NCBI RefSeq assembly: GCF_020295405.1
Contig: NZ_JADEYP010000001.1
Location: 62,001 to 126,000, forward strand
DNA length: 64,000 bases
Reading direction: 5' to 3'
Source of the DNA: Sphingobacterium bovistauri
GTDB lineage: Bacteria > Bacteroidota > Bacteroidia > Sphingobacteriales > Sphingobacteriaceae
Numbering within the stretch: position 1 is the stretch's first letter; every line of letters starts with the position of its first letter. Below are positions 35,613-48,217 of this stretch, piece by piece. The position numbers were made by a program, and so were the translations under genes. A model generated the notes under the pieces. It did no database searches. It was not told where the DNA came from and was given only the letters and a program-made list of their open reading frames with translations.

Positions 35613-36845
35613 ATGGCTTTAAATTACGTTTGGATTGCCTTTTTTGTTATTGCTTTTATTGTAGCCTTAATTAAACTTCTTTTTTTCGGTGATACCGAAA
35701 TATTTTCTAATCTTATTAATGGGTTATTTGACAGCGCCAAAACTGGTGCTGAACTTTCACTAGGATTAGTGGGCATCATGACTTTTTGGTTAGGCATCAT
35801 GAAAGTTGGTGAGAAAGCTGGAATGATTTCGGTATTCGCAAAGGGGGTATACCCTTTCTTTAGTAAGTTATTTCCAGGTATTCCTAAAGGACATCCTGCT
35901 AATGGCTCGATCATTATGAACTTTTCGGCAAATATGCTTGGATTAGATAATGCCGCAACACCAGTTGGTCTGAAAGCAATGAAAGAATTGCAAGAACTTA
36001 ACAAGGAGAAAGAAACTGCTACCAATTCACAAATTATGTTTTTGGTACTAAATACTGCTGGCATCACACTGATTCCAACATCTGTGATTGCACTTCGTAT
36101 GTCTGCAGGCGCTGCCAATCCAGCAGACATCTTTATTCCAGCACTTATAGGGACTTTTATTTCATTCGTTTCAGGCATGTTGGCTGTAGCTGCATTCCAA
36201 CGGATCAATTTATTTAAGTTACCAATACTTGTATTCTTATGTATTTTCATTGGATTGATGTGTATCTTATATTTTGGTTTGAAAGATATGCCTCCAGACC
36301 AAATGCAAAAAGTAACTGGGTTAATTGGTGGGTTATTGATTTTCTCAATTATAATCCTATTCATAACCTACGGAGCTATAAAAAAAATAAATGTATACGA
36401 TGCTTTTATTGACGGAGCAAAAGAAGGTTTCTCAACAGCAGTCATGATTATCCCCTTCTTGATTGCTATCCTAGTGGCTATTTCAGCTTTCCGTACGACA
36501 GGATGTATGGATTATATTGTTAACGGCATTGGCTCATTAGTTGCTGCTATGGGGCTTGACACACAGTTTGTCCCTGCTTTACCTGTTGGATTGATGAAAA
36601 CACTAAGTGGTGGTGGTGCTAGAGGTTTAATGGTTGATGTCATGCAAACATATGGTGTGGATTCATTTCAAGGTAGGTTAGCTAGTATTATTCAGGGCTC
36701 ATCAGAAACAACATTTTATGTATTAGCAGTCTACTTTGGGTCAGTTGGTATTAAGAACACTAGGCATGCTTTAGTCTGTGGTCTAATTGCAGATTTTGTG
36801 GGGCTGATAGCCGCTATTGTATTAGCCTATTTATTTTTTGGATAA
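35613..36845 (+). CDS. SpmA-SpmB-like fused nucleoside-recognition (Gate) membrane protein
   Basis: 410 residues with about ten hydrophobic segments. The N-terminal half (LGLVGIMTFWLGIMKVGEKAG, then NFSANMLGLDNAATPVGLKAMKELQ at about 107-131) matches SpmA; the C-terminal half (GAKEGFSTAVMIIPFLIAILVAISAFR, SGGGARGLMVD, SSETTFYVLAVYFGSVGIKNTRHAL at about 367-391) matches SpmB. Separate spmA and spmB genes serve spore maturation in Firmicutes; here they are one protein in a non-spore-former, as in other Bacteroidota. Probably transports a small solute; substrate unknown. mgsA follows by 18 bp. Confidence 0.88.
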   Translation: MALNYVWIAFFVIAFIVALIKLLFFGDTEIFSNLINGLFDSAKTGAELSLGLVGIMTFWLGIMKVGEKAGMISVFAKGVYPFFSKLFPGIPKGHPANGSIIMNFSANMLGLDNAATPVGLKAMKELQELNKEKETATNSQIMFLVLNTAGITLIPTSVIALRMSAGAANPADIFIPALIGTFISFVSGMLAVAAFQRINLFKLPILVFLCIFIGLMCILYFGLKDMPPDQMQKVTGLIGGLLIFSIIILFITYGAIKKINVYDAFIDGAKEGFSTAVMIIPFLIAILVAISAFRTTGCMDYIVNGIGSLVAAMGLDTQFVPALPVGLMKTLSGGGARGLMVDVMQTYGVDSFQGRLASIIQGSSETTFYVLAVYFGSVGIKNTRHALVCGLIADFVGLIAAIVLAYLFFG

Positions 36846-36863
36846 ACCTAAATCATTTATATT

Positions 36864-37229
36864 ATGAAAACAATAGCTTTAATTGCACATGATGGTAAAA
36901 AGGCTGAAATGGTAGGATTTGTAAAAGACCATATTGAATTTCTGCGAAGAGCACATATCGTTGCCACAGGAACGACAGGTTCTCTGATTCTTCAGACAGG
37001 ATTAGATGTGGAGTTAAAACTTAGTGGACCTAAAGGTGGAGATGCACAAATCGCCGCATTAGCAGCAGAAGGAAAAATTGCAGGTATTATTTTCTTCAGA
37101 GACCCATTAGGTAAACACCCTCATGAACCTGATATTCAAATGTTAATGCGAATATCCGATTTATATAATGTGCCATTAGCTACAAATCCAGCAACGGGTT
37201 CATTGATAATAGAAGGACTATTGGAGTAA
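36864..37229 (+). CDS. mgsA: Methylglyoxal synthase
   Basis: 121 residues, slightly short of the E. coli enzyme but normal for the family. Converts DHAP to methylglyoxal and phosphate. Seen: IALIAHDGKKAEMVGF with the catalytic-region His and Asp, TGTTGSLI for phosphate binding, GPKGGDAQIAAL with catalytic Asp near 62, and FFRDPLGKHPHEPDIQMLMRI near 77-97. It relieves phosphosugar stress by bypassing lower glycolysis. Downstream of the SpmAB-like gene. Confidence 0.95.
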   Translation: MKTIALIAHDGKKAEMVGFVKDHIEFLRRAHIVATGTTGSLILQTGLDVELKLSGPKGGDAQIAALAAEGKIAGIIFFRDPLGKHPHEPDIQMLMRISDLYNVPLATNPATGSLIIEGLLE

Positions 37230-37269
37230 CAAAATATTAATTTCTACCAAATTTTTTAAGGTAAGACTG

Positions 37270-37277
37270 TATATTTG
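37270..37277 (+). promoter_or_regulatory. -7 box of coaA
   Basis: TATATTTG, exact TAnnTTTG, 22 bp before ATG 37300. No clear upstream TTTG. Confidence 0.45.
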
Positions 37278-37299
37278 CGCGAATAAAATGGAAAGATAG

Positions 37300-38256
37300 A
37301 TGTCAACGTTTCAAGAGGAGAAAATATTAAGTAGTCCTTACCATGATTTCAATAGAGAAGAATGGAAAGAACTAAACGGTCATTTCAATCACAGTTTGAA
37401 TGCAGACGATATTGATCAAATGCATGCTTTAAACGAACCATTGAATACAGAAGAAATTGAAGAAATCTACTTTCCATTAGCTCACCTTATTGAATTACAT
37501 ATAAATCATTACGAGGATATTCGTAATGCTAGTAATAATTTTTTCGATAGAAATCAACAAAAGCTACCCTTCATTATAGGTATCGCAGGATCAGTAGCAG
37601 TAGGCAAAAGCACTACAGCACGTGTTTTGCAAAAGGTACTTTCCTTTCTTCCGAATAAACCTAAAGTATCATTAGTCACTACTGATGGTTTTCTCTACCC
37701 CAATAAAATATTATCTGATCGAGGAATTCTCAATAGAAAAGGCTTTCCTGAAAGCTATGATACCAAGAAATTATTAAACTTTCTTACCGCTGTCAAGTCC
37801 GGAATTTCTACACACATCGTCCCTGTCTACTCGCATCTCGAATATGACATTTTGCGAGATGACACTATACTCATTCAAAATCCTGACATTCTAATTGTGG
37901 AAGGGATTAATGTATTACAAGTCAATTCTCAAAAAGGTCAAAGTAACAAAGTTTTCGTATCTGATTTCTTTGATTACTCTATCTATGTAGACGCCAATGA
38001 AGAGGATATAATTACTTGGTATATAAATAGATTTGAATCCTTACGCGCTACGGCATTTCAAGACCCTAACTCCTACTTTCATAAATATGCTAACCTTACA
38101 TTAGAAGGTAGTAAAGAAATGGCATTTCAAATATGGAATGAGATCAACAAACCTAATTTGCATAATAACATTTTACCAACGAAGTACAGAGCAGATTTAA
38201 TCCTTCAAAAAGCATCAAATCATTTTGTAAATAATGTAAAAGTTAGGAAACTTTAG
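37300..38256 (+). CDS. coaA: Type I pantothenate kinase
   Basis: 318 residues of the CoaA P-loop kinase family, the first and usually rate-limiting step of CoA synthesis. P-loop GIAGSVAVGKSTTAR near residues 94-107; LVTTDGFLYPN near 127; EGINVLQVN near 200 and the late YFHKYANLT, all typical of the family. A panB gene lies at 59.1 kb. Its last 14 bases overlap the convergent MscS gene. Confidence 0.95.
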   Translation: MSTFQEEKILSSPYHDFNREEWKELNGHFNHSLNADDIDQMHALNEPLNTEEIEEIYFPLAHLIELHINHYEDIRNASNNFFDRNQQKLPFIIGIAGSVAVGKSTTARVLQKVLSFLPNKPKVSLVTTDGFLYPNKILSDRGILNRKGFPESYDTKKLLNFLTAVKSGISTHIVPVYSHLEYDILRDDTILIQNPDILIVEGINVLQVNSQKGQSNKVFVSDFFDYSIYVDANEEDIITWYINRFESLRATAFQDPNSYFHKYANLTLEGSKEMAFQIWNEINKPNLHNNILPTKYRADLILQKASNHFVNNVKVRKL

Positions 38257-39115
38257 TTTTAGAATGCTCGAAAATCAATATTTCGCGCAGCACTTCGTTT
38301 TCTATTTCACGATGCAATTTATTACTACTACTTATAGCATATAGTTCTATTTTATAGCGGACAAAGTCCTTGCCTATGTCTACAACATGTATTTTGGGTT
38401 CTGTATTTTCATCCAGATTAGGGTGATTTATCAATACACTTTGTATTTCCTTTTCAAGTGTCTCGATATCTGTAGCCACACTTAATGGTAACTCGAATTT
38501 GACAGTAAATAAATTAGAACGATGAGCTGATAGGTTGACCATAGAATTAGTAAAAACTAAATTATTTGGAACCATTACCATATCATCCTCTTCATTTTGA
38601 AGAATAATATTAGCAAATGTTATATCTACTATCCTACCTTTATGCTCTCCCACCTTAATGCGATCTCCTACAGACAGTTGTTCAGAAAACATCACAAAAA
38701 GTCCACTCAACATATTTGTAATATAATCTCTAAATAGTACGGCAATAGCCATTGCCACTATTGTTAAGCTCGTCACAAACTGAATTGGGTTAATCCCAAA
38801 TGCCACCATCAATGCTATAACCAACAAAACTGTATTTATAATCGCTGTCAATCTATTGATACCTAAGACAAAATTACCTCTTACCGAGCGATTAGCATGC
38901 CGTGCATTATAAATGGATATAATAACAAAACGTAATATTGATATGACAATACTAGGTATTAGAAAAGTGTTAACACCTCTAAATATCTGACTCAACAATT
39001 CACTTTTTTTACTTTCAAAAAAAGTATTATAAACCATCACAGTAATGATAACTGCAATGATTTTCAACACAAACATGTATGGAAAAGTTATCTTTTGTTT
39101 TTCTTTAGCCGTCAT
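38243..39115 (-). CDS. MscS-family mechanosensitive ion channel
   Basis: 290 residues. Three or four N-terminal membrane segments (about 12-24, 44-70, 85-105, 108-125), the pore-lining TM3 region ending in LSGLFVMFSEQLSVGDRIKVG (about 137-157), and the MscS beta domain (GEHKGRIVDITFANIILQNEEDDMVMVPNNLVFTNSMVNLS, described by position 155-197). Opens under hypo-osmotic shock; small-conductance class. It overlaps the coaA 3' end by 14 bp, tail to tail. Confidence 0.88.
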   Translation of the reverse strand: MTAKEKQKITFPYMFVLKIIAVIITVMVYNTFFESKKSELLSQIFRGVNTFLIPSIVISILRFVIISIYNARHANRSVRGNFVLGINRLTAIINTVLLVIALMVAFGINPIQFVTSLTIVAMAIAVLFRDYITNMLSGLFVMFSEQLSVGDRIKVGEHKGRIVDITFANIILQNEEDDMVMVPNNLVFTNSMVNLSAHRSNLFTVKFELPLSVATDIETLEKEIQSVLINHPNLDENTEPKIHVVDIGKDFVRYKIELYAISSSNKLHREIENEVLREILIFEHSKTKVS

Positions 39116-39248
39116 AAATTGTAAATCTCCAGAGCACTAAACTACTAATTTTAGACATTCAAACCTATTAATGAAGGAATGAAAAACTGTTTTATATTAG
39201 GTAAAAATACAGTAACTTAGCCGAGATAAACGACAGTGTTATTTTTAT

Positions 39249-40202
39249 ATGAATACGACATTTGATTTTGAGAAGCCGATTGCTGATTTGCAAACGCAAA
39301 TAGAAAAAGTTAATCAAGTCGCGGAAAAAACAAAAGTAGACATGAGTGCTACAGTTCGCGAATTGGAAGAAAAACTTGAGCAAACTAAGGTGGATATATA
39401 CAATAACTTGACAGGATGGCAAAAAGTACAGATGTCAAGACACCCAGAGAGACCACAAACTTTCGACTATATCGAAATGATATGTGATGAGTTTGTCGAG
39501 TTACACGGTGACCGTACAGTAAAAGATGATAAAGCTATCGTAGGTGGTTTTGCTTCTATTGGTGGGGAATCGGTAATGGTAATTGGACATCAAAAAGGTA
39601 AAAACACCAAAGAAAGACAATACCGTAATTTCGGAATGGCTAACCCAGAAGGCTATCGTAAGGCTCTTCGTTTAATGAAAATGGCAGAGAAGTTCAATAA
39701 GCCTGTCGTAACATTAATCGATACTATGGGGGCATTTCCAGGCTTAGAAGCCGAAGAAAGAGGCCAAGGTGAAGCTATCGCACGTAACCTATTAGAAATG
39801 TCTGTGCTAAAAGTTCCTGTGATCTGTATTGTTATCGGTGAAGGTGCCTCTGGTGGTGCGCTAGGTATAGGTATTGGAGATCGCGTATACATGATGGAAA
39901 ACACATGGTATTCGGTAATCTCTCCAGAATCATGCTCTTCTATCTTATGGAGAAGTTGGGATCATAAAGAACGTGCTGCTGAAGCATTGAAATTAACAGG
40001 TAATGATATGTTAGCAAATGGATTAATAGATGGTATCATTCCTGAACCTGTAGGTGGTGCACATCAAAACCCTGAAGCTGCCGCAGCAAATGTTAAAGCT
40101 CAAATTTTAGCTGATTTAACCATCTTAGGCGCTAAAGACAAAGAAACTTTAGTTGCTGAAAGAATAGACAAGTTTAGCAAAATGGGTGTTGTAAACGAAT
40201 AA
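39249..40202 (+). CDS. accA: Acetyl-CoA carboxylase carboxyltransferase subunit alpha
   Basis: 317 residues. Transfers carboxyl from biotin to acetyl-CoA, the first step of fatty acid synthesis. Seen: an N-terminal coiled region with [44 protein letters not shown] near 80, [22 protein letters not shown] near 125-145, [27 protein letters not shown] near 151-176 and [25 protein letters not shown]. It ends VVNE. The last 23 bp and its terminator are repeated 2.9 kb downstream. Confidence 0.97.
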
Positions 40203-40255
40203 TAATTCATCTAACCCTATAAAAAAGCCTTCAATTATTAAATTGAAGGCTTTTT
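40179..40255. repeat. Direct repeat copy A: end of accA plus its terminator
   Basis: Aligns to 43114-43196 in the same orientation. First 23 bp (accA codons to its TAA region): 3 mismatches, all G to A; the 13-mer TTGTAAACGAATA is exact. Then a looser 15-bp part, exact CTATAAAAAAG, and the hairpin core CCTTCAATnATTAAATTGAAGGC with one mismatch. Confidence 0.8.
40222..40255 (+). terminator. Terminator of accA
   Basis: 15-bp stem (AAAAAGCCTTCAATT with its complement), ATTA loop, T5; arms are A/T-flanked, so it may also serve the convergent gene. Confidence 0.85.
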
Positions 40256-40293
40256 CATTTAATCTAACTTTTATTAATAAGCATCCAATAATG

Positions 40294-41706
40294 TTATGGT
40301 TGAAAACTAGTAAATATAAATTGGTCTTTACCCTTATTATATAAATTAATCATTGTATTATTATCTGGTATATAAGTGGTAAATTCAGGAAGCAATGAAT
40401 CATATTCTATACCACGAGTTGCTGCATAATAATCAAATTTTTCTTTCACGTTTATATCTTCAAATAGATTAAATAACACATGCGGGCCACTTAAATAAAT
40501 TCTTCCATTAAATGGGGTCATTGAATATGTACGGGAATATCTATATTTAAAGTATGAATGTTTATCAATTGGAACATTTGCTAAAATTTTACCAATTAAA
40601 TCAAGTTCAAAAAGATTACCTGGACCGTAATAAGATATCGGAGTCAATGAATTTGGGTTCATGGGGTTCTGATTTTTAGCTTGATTTTCCTCTTGTTTTA
40701 TTTCAGTAAATAAAAAGAATTTATTGTTTTCAAAAAGAACCTTTCTGATAGTGACATCTACAATTTTATTTTTAACATCTTTCCCTATAACAATATCATT
40801 ATTTGCTAACGTCGTGCCATCCGAAAGATTGTATACTAAAAGATTGGTAAAATCATGAGAAGCCCTCACCGTCTTGTCTACATAATTAATTGCAAAAAGA
40901 TAGTCTTGATTATTTATATTCAATAACATAGGTTCATGTATCATTAATTTACCATCAATAGTTTTAGTTTCTTGTCCCTTTTCATCTATCACAACAAAAT
41001 GTTTGTATTCTTTGTAACTATTGGGGTTTCTAACAATAACAACCTTACCAAAATCAGTAGTTAAACAAGAACTTGTTCTAAAATTATCTTCAAAGGTTAC
41101 AGACTTTTTGAACACTTCATTCATGTTTTCTGTATTATACACAACACAATCAACTTGCTGAGGTTGCTTCTTTATTACTTTATGTGCATATATCACAGTT
41201 AAATACTTGCCGTTTGCAGATAATGAACTAATTACATCTCCCGATTTAGATAAGGATTCTATGGGATAACTTGCTAAAATTTTATTACTAAAGGCATCAT
41301 TTGTTTTATCAAATGTATAGGCATGAATATCTGTCTTCAAACCTTTCTTACTAGAAGATTGGATAAGCGTAACTATTTGATTTGCATTTATTTGAAATGA
41401 AGCATTATACGTGTGAATTAATTCAGGTGAAATAGAAAAATCTTGTTCTTTTTCATCAACTAAATTATTAGATTGATCAAATTTTCGAACAATTATTTTA
41501 CGTTGACCCAATCCAGACCATTCAGATATGACGCTATGTAAGTAATAGTTATAACCATTTGCAAAACATAGTTTTGTGTCCTTTTCAAGTTCTTCTTGAA
41601 AACTAAAACTTTCCCCAACTTTTAGGTTATTTTGATTGCCATTTTGTGCTGCTACAATTTGTAATATTAGCAGAATAAAAAATGACAGTATTGATCGCTT
41701 TAACAT
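40294..41706 (-). CDS. Secreted protein of unknown function, WD/beta-propeller-like
   Basis: 470 residues with signal peptide (ILSFFILLILQIVAAQ). No catalytic motif or named domain recognised. The body has about ten repeated hydrophobic-polar strands, with lines such as VVIDEKGQETKTIDGKL and LLVYNLSDGTTLANNDIVIG that resemble blades of a beta propeller, and a tail with ISYYGPGNLFELDLIGKIL and ending FIFTSFQP. No lipobox. It follows 41722-42909 by 15 bp and the two form one operon. The pair lies between the two accA-end repeats. Base composition is lower in GC than accA by eye. Confidence 0.6.
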   Translation of the reverse strand: MLKRSILSFFILLILQIVAAQNGNQNNLKVGESFSFQEELEKDTKLCFANGYNYYLHSVISEWSGLGQRKIIVRKFDQSNNLVDEKEQDFSISPELIHTYNASFQINANQIVTLIQSSSKKGLKTDIHAYTFDKTNDAFSNKILASYPIESLSKSGDVISSLSANGKYLTVIYAHKVIKKQPQQVDCVVYNTENMNEVFKKSVTFEDNFRTSSCLTTDFGKVVIVRNPNSYKEYKHFVVIDEKGQETKTIDGKLMIHEPMLLNINNQDYLFAINYVDKTVRASHDFTNLLVYNLSDGTTLANNDIVIGKDVKNKIVDVTIRKVLFENNKFFLFTEIKQEENQAKNQNPMNPNSLTPISYYGPGNLFELDLIGKILANVPIDKHSYFKYRYSRTYSMTPFNGRIYLSGPHVLFNLFEDINVKEKFDYYAATRGIEYDSLLPEFTTYIPDNNTMINLYNKGKDQFIFTSFQP

Positions 41707-41721
41707 ATTTGATTAATTAGA

Positions 41722-42909
41722 TTATTTGTAAATTTCCTTTTCTATATTTTTTAATTCGTTATTCTCTGAAGATGACAAATCCATGTAGATAATATTTTCT
41801 TGCATTTGGTTCAGCCATTTTTCTGCTTCTGATTTATTATCCAGAGCAAGATTTAGATTTATTAAATTAAAATAAATCATTGTAGAGATTTTTGAATTAT
41901 AAACAGCTTTCTTATCCTTATAATCTATTTTAGTTGTATATGTAGCCCACACATCCAAAGCCTTTTTTAATCCAGCTATTGCTGATTCGGTAACAGCTGG
42001 ATTTGCAGGGTTTATCTTTTTTAAATTTGTTGTAGCGTAAATGTGTGCTTTCTCTAGGTCATCATATTTTCCGTCCTTATTTTTAACAAAGTATAACTTA
42101 ATAGATTTATCTATAGATTGATACCCCAATTGCTCATTCAAATACACATTAATCTCTTTAACAATATTGTTAATATTTGACTTTTCAATGGTTACTTTGT
42201 TTACACTATTACTCGGTGAAGATGATACTAATTTATAATCAGTAAAGATGTTATGATTTAATAATTCTTGACCATTCTTCTTTATGTGAATACTTGTTGG
42301 TTGATTACCATGTGTCTGATTGTTATTATCAATAAGATTAAGCTTATCTATTTGGATGTTTATATCGTAAAAAGAACTTGTTTTAGTAAAACCTGAAATT
42401 TGAATTTGACTTTCCAAAACGCTATTGTCAATAATTAAATAATTATTCAAATTAGGCTCTGAATAAACGGGTTTTGATGGTGGAAAATATTCTGGCTTAG
42501 CTGGAATTCTTAATTTTGGATTCTTATTCTGCTCTGTCAAAGCCAATCGTTCTAATAAACTTAATTTTTTAAATGCTGCATTCTCAATTTCAAACTTTTC
42601 TTTAGCTAATACGACTTCATCATCGTATGTTTTCAATTTTTCATTAAATTCAAGTTTACTTTTTTCAACAAGAGCATCAAAGTTTGATAGTTTGTATTGA
42701 AACTCCTTCTTAGAGTTTTCAATCACTTGCTCTTTAGTGAGGTTGTAAGGTGAAAGTAGATTTATTTTGTAACTCCTATCATTTATTTCTGTTTTGAATT
42801 TAGGAGACAATAATATTTGATAATCTACAGTTTCAGTGTTTATACTTTGTGCTTTAATAACACCTATGTTTAATAATAGAGTTAGCCAAATAATTCGTTT
42901 TAATGCCAT
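41722..42909 (-). CDS. Secreted protein of unknown function, coiled-coil and helical repeat
   Basis: 395 residues with signal peptide (RIIWLTLLLNIGVIKA). Residues about 50-125 are highly charged and alpha-helical, likely coiled coil (STKEQVIENSKKEF type). Next are a Pro-rich linker (IPAKPEYFPPSKPVYSEP near 135-152), a beta-rich middle (YDINIQIDKLNLIDN), and a C-terminal helical part (about 295-390) with TPR-like repeats (ESAIAGLKKALDVWATY, STMIYFNLINLNLALDNKSEAEKWLNQM). Not recognised as a named family. Upstream gene of a two-gene operon with 40294-41706. Confidence 0.6.
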   Translation of the reverse strand: MALKRIIWLTLLLNIGVIKAQSINTETVDYQILLSPKFKTEINDRSYKINLLSPYNLTKEQVIENSKKEFQYKLSNFDALVEKSKLEFNEKLKTYDDEVVLAKEKFEIENAAFKKLSLLERLALTEQNKNPKLRIPAKPEYFPPSKPVYSEPNLNNYLIIDNSVLESQIQISGFTKTSSFYDINIQIDKLNLIDNNNQTHGNQPTSIHIKKNGQELLNHNIFTDYKLVSSSPSNSVNKVTIEKSNINNIVKEINVYLNEQLGYQSIDKSIKLYFVKNKDGKYDDLEKAHIYATTNLKKINPANPAVTESAIAGLKKALDVWATYTTKIDYKDKKAVYNSKISTMIYFNLINLNLALDNKSEAEKWLNQMQENIIYMDLSSSENNELKNIEKEIYK

Positions 42910-42951
42910 ATGAAAATAGTAAGGTTAAAAAATAAATTTATCAAATAAAAA

Positions 42952-42959
42952 CAAATATA
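42952..42959 (-). promoter_or_regulatory. Candidate -7 box of the unknown pair
   Basis: Minus strand TATATTTG, 42 bp before the ATG at 42909; a TTTG at 42990-42987 is 27 bp upstream, longer than usual. Confidence 0.4.
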
Positions 42960-43113
42960 TAAATTATAGGTTAATATAATGTTATTCAAAAAATATATAA
43001 CACTTTGAAATCACCAAAAACCACACGCAAGCACTCGTATTAGGAGATAAAACTTAACTTCTTGCTAACCACTGTTTGAATTAATGAAATATAATTTATT
43101 ATAAAGAAATTAA

Positions 43114-43203
43114 AAAATAGATATTGTAAACGAATATTACATTTAGCTAATGCTATAAAAAAGTAAAAGCCTTCAATAATTAAATTGAAGGCTTTTACTT
43201 TTT
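43114..43203. repeat. Direct repeat copy B: accA-end-like sequence and hairpin
   Basis: Second copy of the accA end and terminator with the same order as 40179-40255. The coding triplets for VVNE are IVNE here and there is no stop in that frame. The hairpin is extended symmetrically: TAAAAG is added in the left arm and CTTTTA in the right, giving a 20-bp stem (43158-43177, 43184-43203). Confidence 0.8.
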
Positions 43204-43232
43204 AATCTTTTTTCTAAACTCTTTTGCGAAAT

Positions 43233-43260: not shown

Positions 43261-43267
43261 ATTATAA

Positions 43268-46132
43268 TTATTTAGTTTCTTCTGGAAGAAGGATAAACTT
43301 AAATAATTTATCTTCTTTTAGATATTTCTCAGCAACAGCTTTTACAGCAGAAATATTAACCTTTTTCAATTGATCTAAATATTTCAATACTAAAGTAGGG
43401 TCTTCTTTCAAACGATAAGCGCCAGAAATTTGACCTAACCAATATCCGTTTTCTTTTAAGTCTAATTCATACTGACGTGTTTTTTCAATAATAAATTTAT
43501 CTAGATCTACTTGTGTAGGGCCATTTTTCTTGATTTTATTGATCTCGTCTACTGCTGAGTTAATTAGTGACTGATATTTATCTACACTTGTACCAAAACC
43601 AATATTAAATGAATATCTTCCGGTAGGGAATTTCGAATACGAAGCTGAAGCTCCTGTACCGTACACTCCACTTTCATCTTCGCGAAGGCGCTCCAACAAC
43701 TTGATGGAAAGAACCGACTCTAACGCGTCCATAGCCATATTTTCATCATCATTATAGGTATAATCACCCATATAAGCTAGACTTACTTGTGCTTTAGCCT
43801 CTTTTCCTTTATTTACTATAACTTGTAAACCTTTAGCTGGAGGTAAAATTTTCAAATCTCTTGCTTGTTCTTTCGTATTTGAAGATGGTAATGATGCCAA
43901 ATATTGCTCTAAATACGGTTTTATCTCATCTTCAGTAAATGATCCTACTATAGTGAAAGTAAAGCCTGATGCGTCAGCAAATCTCTCTTTAAATATTTCT
44001 AAAGTTCTATCCTTATCAATAGACTTTATTTGTTCAGCAGAAGGATTATTTTTACGAATATTATCTCCGTACAACGCTTTATTAATAGCTGTTCTGTATA
44101 CGAAAGCAGGATCGTCCTCTCTATTTTCCATAGAAGCGACTGTTTTTTCGATAATACCTTGGAAAATATCATCATCCAAACGTGGTTGTGTAAAGTAAGC
44201 ATAGATTAATTCAAAAGCGGTTTTAAGCCCTTCCTTATCTGTACTTCCTGAAATCCCCTCAGTTCTTTCACCGATTGATGGAGAAATTCCTACATTTTTA
44301 CCCGCAAGATATTTTCGTATTTCCACTGCATTTAATTGACCAATACCAGAAGAGGATACTATACCCGCAGCATTTGATGCATTCAAATAATCTTTGTCTT
44401 CATATAATGAATGACCACCTTCACTAGATGCTGAAATTAGAATTTGATCATTTTTGAATGTTGTAGGTTTCAAAACAACTTTAACCCCATTGCTTAACGT
44501 TAGTTCCTTAGAACCAATTGCATCAATTGTTTTAACCGCGGTAACCGCCCCTTTTACTGGTTCTTTAGCTAATAAAGGTAATTTAGAAACCTGATCTTCA
44601 TAGGCCGTCAATTTTTCTTTACCAACAGCATCAAACCATGAATTTACTACCGACTCCGTAGGCATCTTGTCTTTATCTTTTTCAGGACCTACGATGACGA
44701 TGTCACGATTGATTTCTGCATAATACTTTTTACCTATAGCTTCCACCTCTTTCAAAGTCAAGGTTGGCAACAATTGTTTAGTTAAATTGTATTCATCTTC
44801 CACACTCATTGCCGCATCACCTTTCAAGAAATGGTTTAAATAAGAATTCACATATGTGTCTGATTTTACTTTATCACGTTCTTGATAAGACATTTCATTA
44901 CCCTTAGCATACATAGCTAGAGCACGTTGAAATTCACTTTCTGTAATTCCAAATTCTTCAAAACGCTTAAGTTCTCTTATCACAGATTTAGTACTCTCTT
45001 CTAATTTTTCTGGCTTTGGAACAACAGCTAATGTCATTGCATCCAATAAATCCATAAAATCACCTATAGATATCATAGATTGCAAGAATGGAGAATCAGG
45101 TTTTTGACCTATTTCACGCAAACGTCCATTCATCACTTGATTAAATACCCCTTGCAAAAGAGATGTACGGTAATCTCCTACAGTATTTACTTCTGCTTTT
45201 GGATGCTTAATAATGATACGCCCAATAGTTTGTGGCATTTCTGCATCTGTGATCACTTTGAATTGATTTTTATTTAGCAAGTCTAAATTAAAATCTTTGC
45301 GAGGAGCTATTTTCTTATTCACCTTCATATCAGAGAATAAACGAATAACTTCCTTTTCAATTGCTTGCGCATCAATATCACCTACAATTACTATAGATTG
45401 CAAATCAGGTCTATACCACTTTTGATGAAAATCACGAATTAATTGATGTTTAAAACCCATTACTACCTTTTCAGTACCGATAGGCAATCTTTCAGAATAC
45501 AATGATCCATTAAATAGCACAGGTAACATTTGGTCTTGTATACGTTGACCAGCACCTCGGCTACCACGCATTTCTTCCATAATAATCCCACGCTCTTTAT
45601 CAATCTCATCATTTTGAAGCATAGCATCTTGAGCCCAATCACGCATGACTTGAAGACCATTTTTTAATAATTCTGGATCATCAGACGGAATTGGTAACTG
45701 ATATACAGTTTCATTAAAACTTGTGTATGCATTCAAATCCGAACCAAAACGTACACCAGCCTTTTGTAGATAATCTACAAGAGCATTTTTAGGAAAATGT
45801 TTTAGGCCATTAAAATTCATATGCTCTAAAAAGTGAGCTAAACCTCTTTCCTCTTCTGTCTCCAAAATAGATCCTACTTTTATACCCAAATACATGGTAA
45901 CACGCTTTTCTGGCTCAGAGTTTTTACGTATATAGTACGTAAATCCATTCTTTAGTTTACCTACCTTTACATCTTTGTCGAATGGCAAAGGACTTTTCCA
46001 AGATAATGTATCTTGACTTAATATTGTTCTTACTTCTGTAGACAGCATTGCATTAAAATTAGATTTAGCTTGCAACGAGCTAAAAGTAGCTGGTAATAAA
46101 AATGCTACTGCAAGAGGTTTTAAAAATTTCAT
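43268..46132 (-). CDS. M16-family (insulinase/pitrilysin) zinc metallopeptidase
   Basis: 954 residues with a signal peptide (LKPLAVAFLLPATFSSLQA). The inverted zinc motif is H100-F-L-E103-H104 in GLAHFLEHMNF; a distal Glu ligand probably lies in the MEEMRGSRGAG region (DKERGIIMEEMR, about 175-187). A second M16-like half (from about 540, SKELTLSNGVKVVLKP...) lacks the zinc motif, as is normal in these two-lobe enzymes. Periplasmic, degrades peptides. Monocistronic. Confidence 0.92.
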   Translation of the reverse strand: MKFLKPLAVAFLLPATFSSLQAKSNFNAMLSTEVRTILSQDTLSWKSPLPFDKDVKVGKLKNGFTYYIRKNSEPEKRVTMYLGIKVGSILETEEERGLAHFLEHMNFNGLKHFPKNALVDYLQKAGVRFGSDLNAYTSFNETVYQLPIPSDDPELLKNGLQVMRDWAQDAMLQNDEIDKERGIIMEEMRGSRGAGQRIQDQMLPVLFNGSLYSERLPIGTEKVVMGFKHQLIRDFHQKWYRPDLQSIVIVGDIDAQAIEKEVIRLFSDMKVNKKIAPRKDFNLDLLNKNQFKVITDAEMPQTIGRIIIKHPKAEVNTVGDYRTSLLQGVFNQVMNGRLREIGQKPDSPFLQSMISIGDFMDLLDAMTLAVVPKPEKLEESTKSVIRELKRFEEFGITESEFQRALAMYAKGNEMSYQERDKVKSDTYVNSYLNHFLKGDAAMSVEDEYNLTKQLLPTLTLKEVEAIGKKYYAEINRDIVIVGPEKDKDKMPTESVVNSWFDAVGKEKLTAYEDQVSKLPLLAKEPVKGAVTAVKTIDAIGSKELTLSNGVKVVLKPTTFKNDQILISASSEGGHSLYEDKDYLNASNAAGIVSSSGIGQLNAVEIRKYLAGKNVGISPSIGERTEGISGSTDKEGLKTAFELIYAYFTQPRLDDDIFQGIIEKTVASMENREDDPAFVYRTAINKALYGDNIRKNNPSAEQIKSIDKDRTLEIFKERFADASGFTFTIVGSFTEDEIKPYLEQYLASLPSSNTKEQARDLKILPPAKGLQVIVNKGKEAKAQVSLAYMGDYTYNDDENMAMDALESVLSIKLLERLREDESGVYGTGASASYSKFPTGRYSFNIGFGTSVDKYQSLINSAVDEINKIKKNGPTQVDLDKFIIEKTRQYELDLKENGYWLGQISGAYRLKEDPTLVLKYLDQLKKVNISAVKAVAEKYLKEDKLFKFILLPEETK

Positions 46133-46226
46133 TAATTTAGAATGTTAAATACAAGACAAATTAAATATTAATAATTGATAAGAAAAATATATCAGCATAA
46201 ATTTTACATTTTTTAAGAGTTTTTAG

Positions 46227-47120
46227 ATGAATTGGAATAGTATACTGAAAGATTTCAAGAAATTTTTATCATTTGAACGCAATTTATCCAAAAATTCGTC
46301 ACTTGCTTATATCAATGATGTAACCAAAATAAAAGTTTATTGTGAGGATAATAATATCGCTTTAGATAAATTGACCACCAAAGACTTTCAAAACTTCTTA
46401 GTATGGATTAATGAATTCAATATATCTCCATATTCGCAAGCTAGGATTATCTCGGGGCTTAAATCTTTTTTCAATTTTCTACAGCTAGAATATAATTTTG
46501 AAAATAATCCAGCAGCATTAATTGAAACCCCTCGCCTTAATCGAAAAATACCAGATGTATTAAATGTAGCGGAGATCGATAATTTAATTTCAGCAATTGA
46601 CTTGTCTCATGCAGAGGGACCTCGTAATAAAGCGATGCTAGAAGCTTTATACGGTTGTGGGCTTCGTGTAAGTGAATTGATTGGACTCAAAATATCCAAT
46701 CTTCACCTGGAAGTGGAATTTATCAAAATCGAAGGTAAAGGAAATAAAGAACGACTAATTCCAATAGGCAATCAAGCTATAAAATATTTAAAAATCTATC
46801 TCGACGAAGTCCGACCTAAATTACCTATCAAAAACGGTAGCGAAGATTTTGTTTTTTTGAATCGCCGTGGTGCACCCCTGACACGCGTCATGGTATTTAT
46901 CATCATCAAAGATTTGGCTGCTAAAATAGGTTTGAAAAAGAAGATTAGCCCACACACTTTCCGTCATAGCTTTGCTTCACATCTGGTCGAAGGTGGCGCA
47001 GATTTGCGTGCTGTACAAGATATGCTTGGTCATGAAAGTATTACAACCACTGAAATCTATACGCATATAGACAAAGACTATCTGCAATCTATCATCACGC
47101 AGTATCACCCAAGGTCATAA
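46227..47120 (+). CDS. xerD: Site-specific tyrosine recombinase XerD
   Basis: 297 residues, standard length for the dimer-resolution recombinase. N-terminal SAM-like core-binding domain (about 1-85), catalytic domain with R in ALYGCGLRVSELIGL (about 146), K in KGNKERLIP, HTFRHSFASHL (H and R at 244/247), LGHESITTTEIYTHI with H267 and nucleophile Tyr near 276. It resolves chromosome dimers at dif with XerC. The size, the conserved C-end and the absence of attachment sites argue for the housekeeping enzyme and not an integrase. tRNA-Arg lies just beyond, convergent. Confidence 0.9.
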   Translation: MNWNSILKDFKKFLSFERNLSKNSSLAYINDVTKIKVYCEDNNIALDKLTTKDFQNFLVWINEFNISPYSQARIISGLKSFFNFLQLEYNFENNPAALIETPRLNRKIPDVLNVAEIDNLISAIDLSHAEGPRNKAMLEALYGCGLRVSELIGLKISNLHLEVEFIKIEGKGNKERLIPIGNQAIKYLKIYLDEVRPKLPIKNGSEDFVFLNRRGAPLTRVMVFIIIKDLAAKIGLKKKISPHTFRHSFASHLVEGGADLRAVQDMLGHESITTTEIYTHIDKDYLQSIITQYHPRS

Positions 47121-47127
47121 AATGACA

Positions 47128-47153
47128 AAAGCACCCAGTAAACTAGATGCTTT
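47128..47153. terminator. Bidirectional terminator between xerD and tRNA-Arg
   Basis: AAAGCACC and GATGCTTT (one G-T pair) around a 10-base loop, with A/T flanks on both sides. Confidence 0.6.
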
Positions 47154-47157
47154 GCTG

Positions 47158-47231
<74 letters not shown>

Positions 47232-47392
47232 TTTTACCCTTACTTTCTGACCAGTGTCGTTCCGTTTTGGTGATGCAAATATGAGGAGATTTTTATTTAA
47301 TTCAAACTTTTTCTTACATTTTTTCTACTTTAGACGCATATTTATTGGTATATTGTTGATACATAAAGAAATAATTTTTCACTAACATTTAT

Positions 47393-48217
47393 ATGGCAGA
47401 GCGTACAATTCGATCAGGGAAAGCACATGTGCAAGACATCAATATATCTTACTATATCAAGAAAGCAACCGAACCGGAAGAAAAAGTCATTATCTTTATT
47501 CACGGCTTCCCTTTCAACAAAAACACCTGGAAATATCAGCTCGAAGCACTCGAAGATAATATCACAGGAATTGCTATCGATGTGCGTGGACATGGACTCA
47601 GTACGAGTGGACATGGATTCTTCAGTATTGACGTCTTTGCAAAGGATCTCGAAGCCTTTATGGACAAACTAGAATTGCAGAAAGTGGTCTTATGTGGTGT
47701 TAGTATGGGTGGTTATATTGCTTTACGCGCATACGAACTCTTTCCTGAAAAAATTGAAGGGTTAATTCTCTCGGATACCCACCATAGAGCGGATGACAAT
47801 GCTGGAAAACAAAAGCGTTTTGATAGCATACAAGCGATTTTGCGCTATGGACGTAGACCTTTTGCTATCGCTTTTATCGATAATCTTTTTACCAAGAAAA
47901 CCATTCAAGAAAATGAAGAAGTAATTGAACTCATCAAAAGTAGCATACGTCGTAATACCGTACGCAATATTTGTGCTACGCAATTGGCTTTGGCGTCTCG
48001 TACAGATTCTACAGAACTGTTATCCAAAATAACTGTCCCTACCCTAATTATCCGTGGTGAACAAGATAAAATCACACCTAAAGCCCTAATGGATGAATTA
48101 CATCAGGGCATTAAGGATTCTACCTTTGTGGAAATACAAAATACCGGACATCTTCCAAATCTAGAAGATCCTTTAGCTTTTAATAGAGAAATGAATGAGT
48201 TTTTGTTGAGGATGTAA
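47393..48217 (+). CDS. Alpha/beta-hydrolase fold protein
   Basis: 274 residues. Nucleophile Ser in GVSMGGYIAL (about 102-111, GxSxG), oxyanion-side motif HGFPFNKNTW (about 38-47), acidic residue probably in the IRGEQDKITP region (about 217-226), catalytic His near 247 (NTGHLPNLEDP). Cytosolic, no signal peptide. Substrate not assigned. A lipoprotein gene follows by 11 bp. Confidence 0.85.
   Translation: MAERTIRSGKAHVQDINISYYIKKATEPEEKVIIFIHGFPFNKNTWKYQLEALEDNITGIAIDVRGHGLSTSGHGFFSIDVFAKDLEAFMDKLELQKVVLCGVSMGGYIALRAYELFPEKIEGLILSDTHHRADDNAGKQKRFDSIQAILRYGRRPFAIAFIDNLFTKKTIQENEEVIELIKSSIRRNTVRNICATQLALASRTDSTELLSKITVPTLIIRGEQDKITPKALMDELHQGIKDSTFVEIQNTGHLPNLEDPLAFNREMNEFLLRM

Follow-up and report, generated by a model that had tools for sequence, protein, structure and literature searches.

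A 64,000-nucleotide stretch of the Sphingobacterium bovistauri genome (contig NZ_JADEYP010000001.1, positions 62,001–126,000; hereafter the window) carries a two-gene operon, g2–g1, between accA and a gene for an M16-family peptidase. The pair was acquired from other bacteria. The last bases of accA and the terminator behind them are duplicated on the far side of the pair, close relatives have the same junction with a single copy and no insert, the pair appears from sequence searches to be foreign to the genus, and elsewhere in the Bacteroidota the two genes form a conserved operon in differing neighborhoods. As to the route of entry, we give somewhat better than even odds (roughly 55%) to a compact operon from another member of the Bacteroidota having been inserted between accA and M16 by recombination without a dedicated recombinase. 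Such an insertion is an ordinary class of event; the two-gene family that it carried is conserved yet undescribed. The case, bounded by close relatives, shows a two-gene module that entered a chromosome next to a core gene with no recombinase in sight. It also draws attention to an unnamed operon carried by many Flavobacterium and Chryseobacterium species.

The Duplicated End of accA

The acetyl-CoA carboxylase alpha subunit gene accA (39249–40202, plus strand) is intact, its open reading frame (ORF) matching Pfam PF03255 and NCBIfam TIGR00513 above their cut-offs. Its last 24 nucleotides form part of the first copy of a direct repeat (copy 1, 40179–40265, plus strand), which consists of the accA tail, the stop, a spacer, and a hairpin terminator with a stem at about 40222–40255. 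The second copy (copy 2, 43114–43208, plus strand) consists of a noncoding remnant of the accA tail, a spacer, and a longer hairpin terminator. Local alignment of the two in direct orientation scores 94, compared to 33 or less in 20 shuffles, and places the repeat within a few bases of where an earlier note on this DNA had put it. The features which that note had listed as shared, namely the 13-mer TTGTAAACGAATA, the sequence CTATAAAAAAG and the hairpin core, are present in both copies, and at each of the three differences in the coding part accA has G and copy 2 has A.

A dispersed repeat is ruled out, since the genome holds just two full places. Copy 2 is the sole other full match to the repeat in its own genome (81% identity, E 3.8e-15); the other three matches are both hairpins on the opposite strand and a hairpin-only match on contig C71 (E 9e-4), and the exact stem pattern occurs in three genomic places, two of which are the repeat copies. 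Chance similarity of terminators is also rejected, because the match holds without the hairpin and exceeds all of 1,500 cross-pairs of flanks (maximum 41, versus 94). With the hairpin excluded, the accA tail and spacer (42 nucleotides versus 62) still score 39, a value reached by none of 20,000 first-order Markov resamples (maximum 34) and none of 9,089 window tiles (maximum 25). Homology into accA covers its final 23–24 bases only; the remainder of the gene, compared with each strand of the insert in turn, scores 22 and 27 (shuffle maxima 23 and 26). The homology ends within an A-rich stretch. The earlier note had made its reading depend on homology of the second copy to accA beyond 90 bp; the homology in fact stops near 90 bp, which, to judge by the alignment, limits the proof value of the repeat without removing the repeat itself.

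Between the copies, the ORFs of at least 60 amino acids listed are two only, g1 (40294–41706) and g2 (41722–42909), both on the minus strand. There is no integrase among the two, and Pfam gives no recombinase domain in either; nor does the ORF list or Pfam reveal a transposase. In this, ORF list and Pfam agree with the earlier description of a two-gene minus-strand operon lacking an integrase.

An Empty Site in Close Relatives

Five close relatives (G002, G064, G059, G051 and G067) were found through their M16 gene, which has 82%–88% protein identity to that of the window. In three of the five (G002, G064 and G059) accA and M16 are adjacent, with one accA end and no pair. The comparison of this junction that the earlier note proposed thus yields a single-copy empty site and clearly disposes of the possibility, raised there, that every relative might have the pair and both copies. 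The junction hairpin is of the same type in G002 and G064 and of a different type in G059. Window positions 36381–40254 and 43266–48207 align to G002, where only 73 bp lie between them. Taken with the single-copy junctions, this alignment indicates that ~2.9 kb were gained in the window lineage. In G051, an IS21-like element, containing an ORF that resembles IstA by eye, interrupts the accA terminator hairpin (junction L088) at the same intergenic spot as the window's pair. In G067, an ABC-F-like gene (by eye) lies next to M16, the neighborhood is lost, and a search of 16 kb there did not turn up accA.

The two copies resemble each other more than they resemble the relatives, which places the duplication in the window lineage. 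From accA tail to hairpin end, over a short stretch of uncertain alignment, the two copies are identical at 66 of 76 columns; copy 1 matches G002 and G064 at 57/73 and 58/73, copy 2 at 57/80 and 56/80, and the two relatives with each other at 67/81. Within the spacer, 16 of 21 columns are identical between the copies, with seven gap columns, as against 10/21 (G002) and 9/21 (G064) for copy 1, 12/28 and 9/28 for copy 2, and 17/29 between G002 and G064. From these counts, the duplication most likely postdates the split from G002 and G064, but the two copies have since had time to drift apart.

A Conserved Operon Foreign to the Genus

Its distribution marks the pair as foreign to the genus, g1 being absent from all 92 other genomes of the genus searched for it and g2 from all 35. 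Weak g2-like matches occur in three genomes of other families (27%–30% identity, E 3e-8 to 3e-9). In the phylum, g1 was found in at least six of 394 other genomes drawn, a lower bound, as at most four candidates per genome were scored, and g2 adjoins it in the same order in all six. A relative of g2 is present in four of 59 other genomes around a Flavobacterium-group genome (G427), and neither gene has a match at E 0.01 among the plasmids of PLSDB. By base composition, g2 (27.6% G+C) is the lowest and g1 (28.7%) the third lowest of 43 window ORFs. A tree of g2 joins the window with three Flavobacterium rows (95/93); its branch is a long one (1.5).

A scan of genome contigs from 84,980 species with a g2 alignment (A1), which is not a census because its patterns favor closer relatives, found 55 loci from Flavobacterium, Chryseobacterium, Mucilaginibacter, Kaistella, Paenimyroides, and other Bacteroidota. 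g1 lies directly downstream of g2 in 53 of these; at L130 and L145 the contig ends before a full g1 could appear. At L142, g2 is split over two frames. Grouped by shared nearest genes, the 53 loci and the window fall into 15 clusters, one of them made up of the window only. The DNA that three Flavobacterium species have in common extends from at most ~70 bp upstream of g2 to the terminator behind g1, and the flanks are unrelated. On these comparisons, g2–g1 presents itself as a conserved operon, patchily present and set in differing neighborhoods; it is a widespread, unnamed and undescribed gene family carried by many Flavobacterium and Chryseobacterium species.

Some individual neighborhoods may be recorded here. 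Two Mucilaginibacter species (L107 and L109) have the pair and its left flank in common and differ by ~2.3 kb directly behind g1. The left flank of the pair in Flavobacterium sp. HJJ (L100), used to seek pair-free sites in Flavobacterium, gave two long matches (G509 and G520, 72%–74% identity) and, at 66%, one shorter match (G056). On the left side of this pair, a terminator-like stretch (L100:4809–4843) recurs at 97% over 35 nucleotides in G524, G534 and G540, and at lower identity in more genomes.

How the Pair Entered

The insertion most likely took place by a single crossover, or by a one-sided event anchored by homology at one end and illegitimate at the other, with DNA that carried an accA tail and terminator. 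Either would leave the accA tail and terminator duplicated. Each hairpin folds well on either strand (z −6.9 and −6.2 for copy 1, −8.4 and −7.9 for copy 2), so copy 1, which would still end accA, might serve as terminator for accA on one side and for g1 on the other, and copy 2, having drifted as noncoding DNA, might be a two-way terminator separating M16 from the g2 promoter. A comparison with RNA families gives four matches at the hairpins, all under their respective gathering scores. Events of this class are described in two reports: 14 clones sequenced after an E. coli conjugation test carried direct duplications, 109–950 bp long, of the homologous end, produced by single crossovers (PMC3240628), and a one-sided anchor model was proposed for type VI secretion system effector modules of Vibrio (PMC5361080). 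As described there, and as in the window, foreign DNA comes to lie beside a homologous end that is directly duplicated in part or displaced downstream of the new module. The window differs in showing the product alone, old and diverged, with donor and anchor assumed.

The same features would also fit a trimmed remnant of a site-specific integrative element, a possible but clearly less probable reading, in which the accA 3′ end and terminator served a tyrosine recombinase as attachment site, the copies are attL and attR, the element itself made accA whole again, and its integrase has since been deleted. The direct repeat of a gene 3′ end around cargo, the intact target gene, and the empty site in relatives would all be expected of such an element, and the 3′ ends of protein genes are known integration sites, as in PAISt at bacA (PMC4057263). 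The window shares with PAISt, as reported there, an insertion at a protein-gene 3′ end, the end here being duplicated directly and the gene left intact; it differs in that the insert has no integrase, the cargo is two genes, no second use of accA is seen, and the pair occurs elsewhere in other neighborhoods. A search of the literature for integrative elements attaching at accA, judged by titles and the starts of abstracts, returned none on this site.

We lean to the recombinase-free route because neither ORF of the insert is an integrase, the site shows no visible reuse, and the pair has no regular repeats around it. As regards reuse, the accA-end repeat that the earlier note expected around other cargo did not turn up: in stretches of 6.9–14.5 kb downstream of accA in 23 relatives, none holds a second accA end, with scores no more than one above the maximum of 20 shuffles each. 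As regards repeats, just two of the 54 loci have a flank-to-flank repeat above the maximum (41) of the 1,500 cross-pairs, namely the window (94) and, alone of the other 53, Flavobacterium rhamnosiphilum (L096, 323). Hence the pair is not regularly accompanied by a target duplication, and accA does not show up as a habitual target. In addition, the identical runs shared by copies 1 and 2 are short, the longest being ~18 nucleotides, within the hairpin, though the copies are old enough to have drifted. Of the earlier proposal of integration at the accA 3′ end with a duplicated target, the insertion, the empty sites in three of five relatives, the duplicated end, and the lack of an integrase all hold, while use of the accA end as an element's site would be a further, less probable step.

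The repeats at L096 deserve a description of their own. There the pair lies between direct repeats of ~320 bp with 93%–94% identity (L096:4212–8625), which are unrelated to accA. A type I restriction-like gene (by eye) is near, and parts of the repeats recur further along the same contig.

Several points weigh against acquisition by recombination without a dedicated recombinase. No donor molecule with an accA tail adjoining the pair was seen, which is why the anchor has to be assumed. accA itself was considered as a recombined donor block and rejected, as it shows no clear stretch of odd divergence from its relatives that would mark donor sequence. One-sided events are rare according to both PMC3240628 and PMC5361080, one of which gives a frequency of 3×10^-10 in its test. 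Long direct repeats are not general around the pair (two of 54 loci), and those at L096 are different ones. The largest neighborhood cluster consists of 21 Chryseobacterium loci, so in that genus the pair looks stably inherited. The pair's codon usage is not unusual for the window, the position of g2 in its tree depends on a long branch, and the window has no secure place in the tree of g1.

It is rather unlikely that homology played no part, the accA tail and terminator having been duplicated in tandem by replication slippage or template switching and the pair having been joined in during repair of the same break. The end of the homology in an A-rich stretch would suit this, and the spot tolerates insertions, as the IS21-like element in G051 attests; set against that, two coincident events are required, and the data give no mechanism linking them.

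A more speculative and distinctly improbable idea, drawn by analogy with integron cassettes and their folded attC sites, is that g2–g1 might be a minimal mobile cassette without movement genes of its own, placed by a trans-acting recombinase on the terminator hairpins at gene ends. It would account for the direct repeats that bracket the pair in two independent hosts and for the shared unit in three Flavobacterium species being trimmed to an upstream region, two genes and a terminator.

An ancestral presence of the pair in the genus followed by its loss elsewhere, with the repeat left by an older tandem duplication, is very improbable. Mucilaginibacter, labeled Sphingobacteriaceae, does have the pair in two loci, but its g2 does not group with that of the window, g1 is missing from 92 of 92 other genomes of the genus, and three relatives have the empty site with one copy. 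Target-site duplications are usually far shorter than ~90 bp, and neither ORF of the insert is a transposase (no search for terminal inverted repeats was made). On these grounds, cargo borne by a transposon or insertion sequence is the least probable reading of all, notwithstanding the IS21-like insertion at the same spot in G051.

The g1 and g2 Proteins

Both proteins begin with a signal-like peptide, N-terminal in g1 and judged by eye in both cases, and they would be exported. g1 (470 amino acids) is predicted to be an exported beta-propeller. Its structure model (predicted local distance difference test score [pLDDT] 83.8, predicted template-modeling score [pTM] 0.82) is nearly all strands and resembles solved beta-propellers (best Foldseek E 1e-7); the best VIA match, 7ado_A, aligns 339 residues, most of the chain, with Z 20.9 and a root-mean-square deviation (rmsd) of 4.0. 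The predicted fold is that of S9 peptidase propellers, EMC1 and WD40 proteins, whereas sequence identity to such proteins in the listed rows is only 5%–11%, and no PDB chain matches by sequence at E 1. Residues 177–243 have a marginal Pfam match to DUF6718 (PF20476; 23.1 bits, E 9e-5), which falls under the curated cut-off of 27 bits.

g2 (395 amino acids) comes first in the operon and is predicted to be an exported scaffold, its model (pLDDT 87.8, pTM 0.60) having a long helical hairpin, a strand-rich part and a helical tail. Foldseek gives no match to it at E ≤ 0.001. Residues ~36–263 weakly resemble the LptE/TraT/HpaA-like envelope lipoprotein fold (9fsm_A; VIA Z 8.6, rmsd 3.0, 114 aligned), a value that may reflect common arrangements, and residues ~276–395 likewise weakly resemble a tetratricopeptide-like helical repeat (6hc2_S; Z 9.5, rmsd 3.8, 112 aligned), in a range common for helical repeats.

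No named family passes a curated cut-off for either protein. At E 1, g2 has no Pfam match, and neither protein has a match in NCBIfam, among the PADLOC defense systems, or, as a profile, in the PDB; PHROGs gives five families at E 0.12–0.44 only. Literature linking the host genera with a beta-propeller, as far as titles and the starts of abstracts tell, held nothing related. Since aligned g1 rows are 21%–32% identical to the window protein and those of g2 40%–51%, g1 changes faster than g2. The two products probably form an exported complex, with g2 as scaffold and g1 as the faster-changing recognition part; conservation of the operon is the sole basis for proposing that they act together. A faster-changing propeller with a steadier partner suggests a role in recognition at the cell surface.

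Surrounding Features

The region upstream of g2 (42910–43113, minus strand) is A+T-rich (20.6% G+C) and presumably contains the promoter; compared with the upstream regions of other copies of the pair, its best score is 32, where the shuffled maximum is 35. Beyond copy 2 lies the M16-family peptidase gene (43268–46132, minus strand; PF00675 and PF05193), the convergent neighbor that adjoins accA in the three pair-less relatives G002, G064 and G059. The nearest tyrosine recombinase gene, at 46227–47120, was considered as the recombinase of an element and rejected, as it passes the NCBIfam XerD cut-off and is aligned in all five close relatives, all without the pair. A tRNA-Arg (acg) gene lies at 47157–47231, just behind xerD; G002 has one at apparently the same place (L152:5102–5176), ~4 kb past the accA end. 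In four relatives within the genus (L165, L167, L169 and L023), a tRNA-Lys (ttt) gene closely follows accA, and the downstream side of accA therefore varies across the genus.

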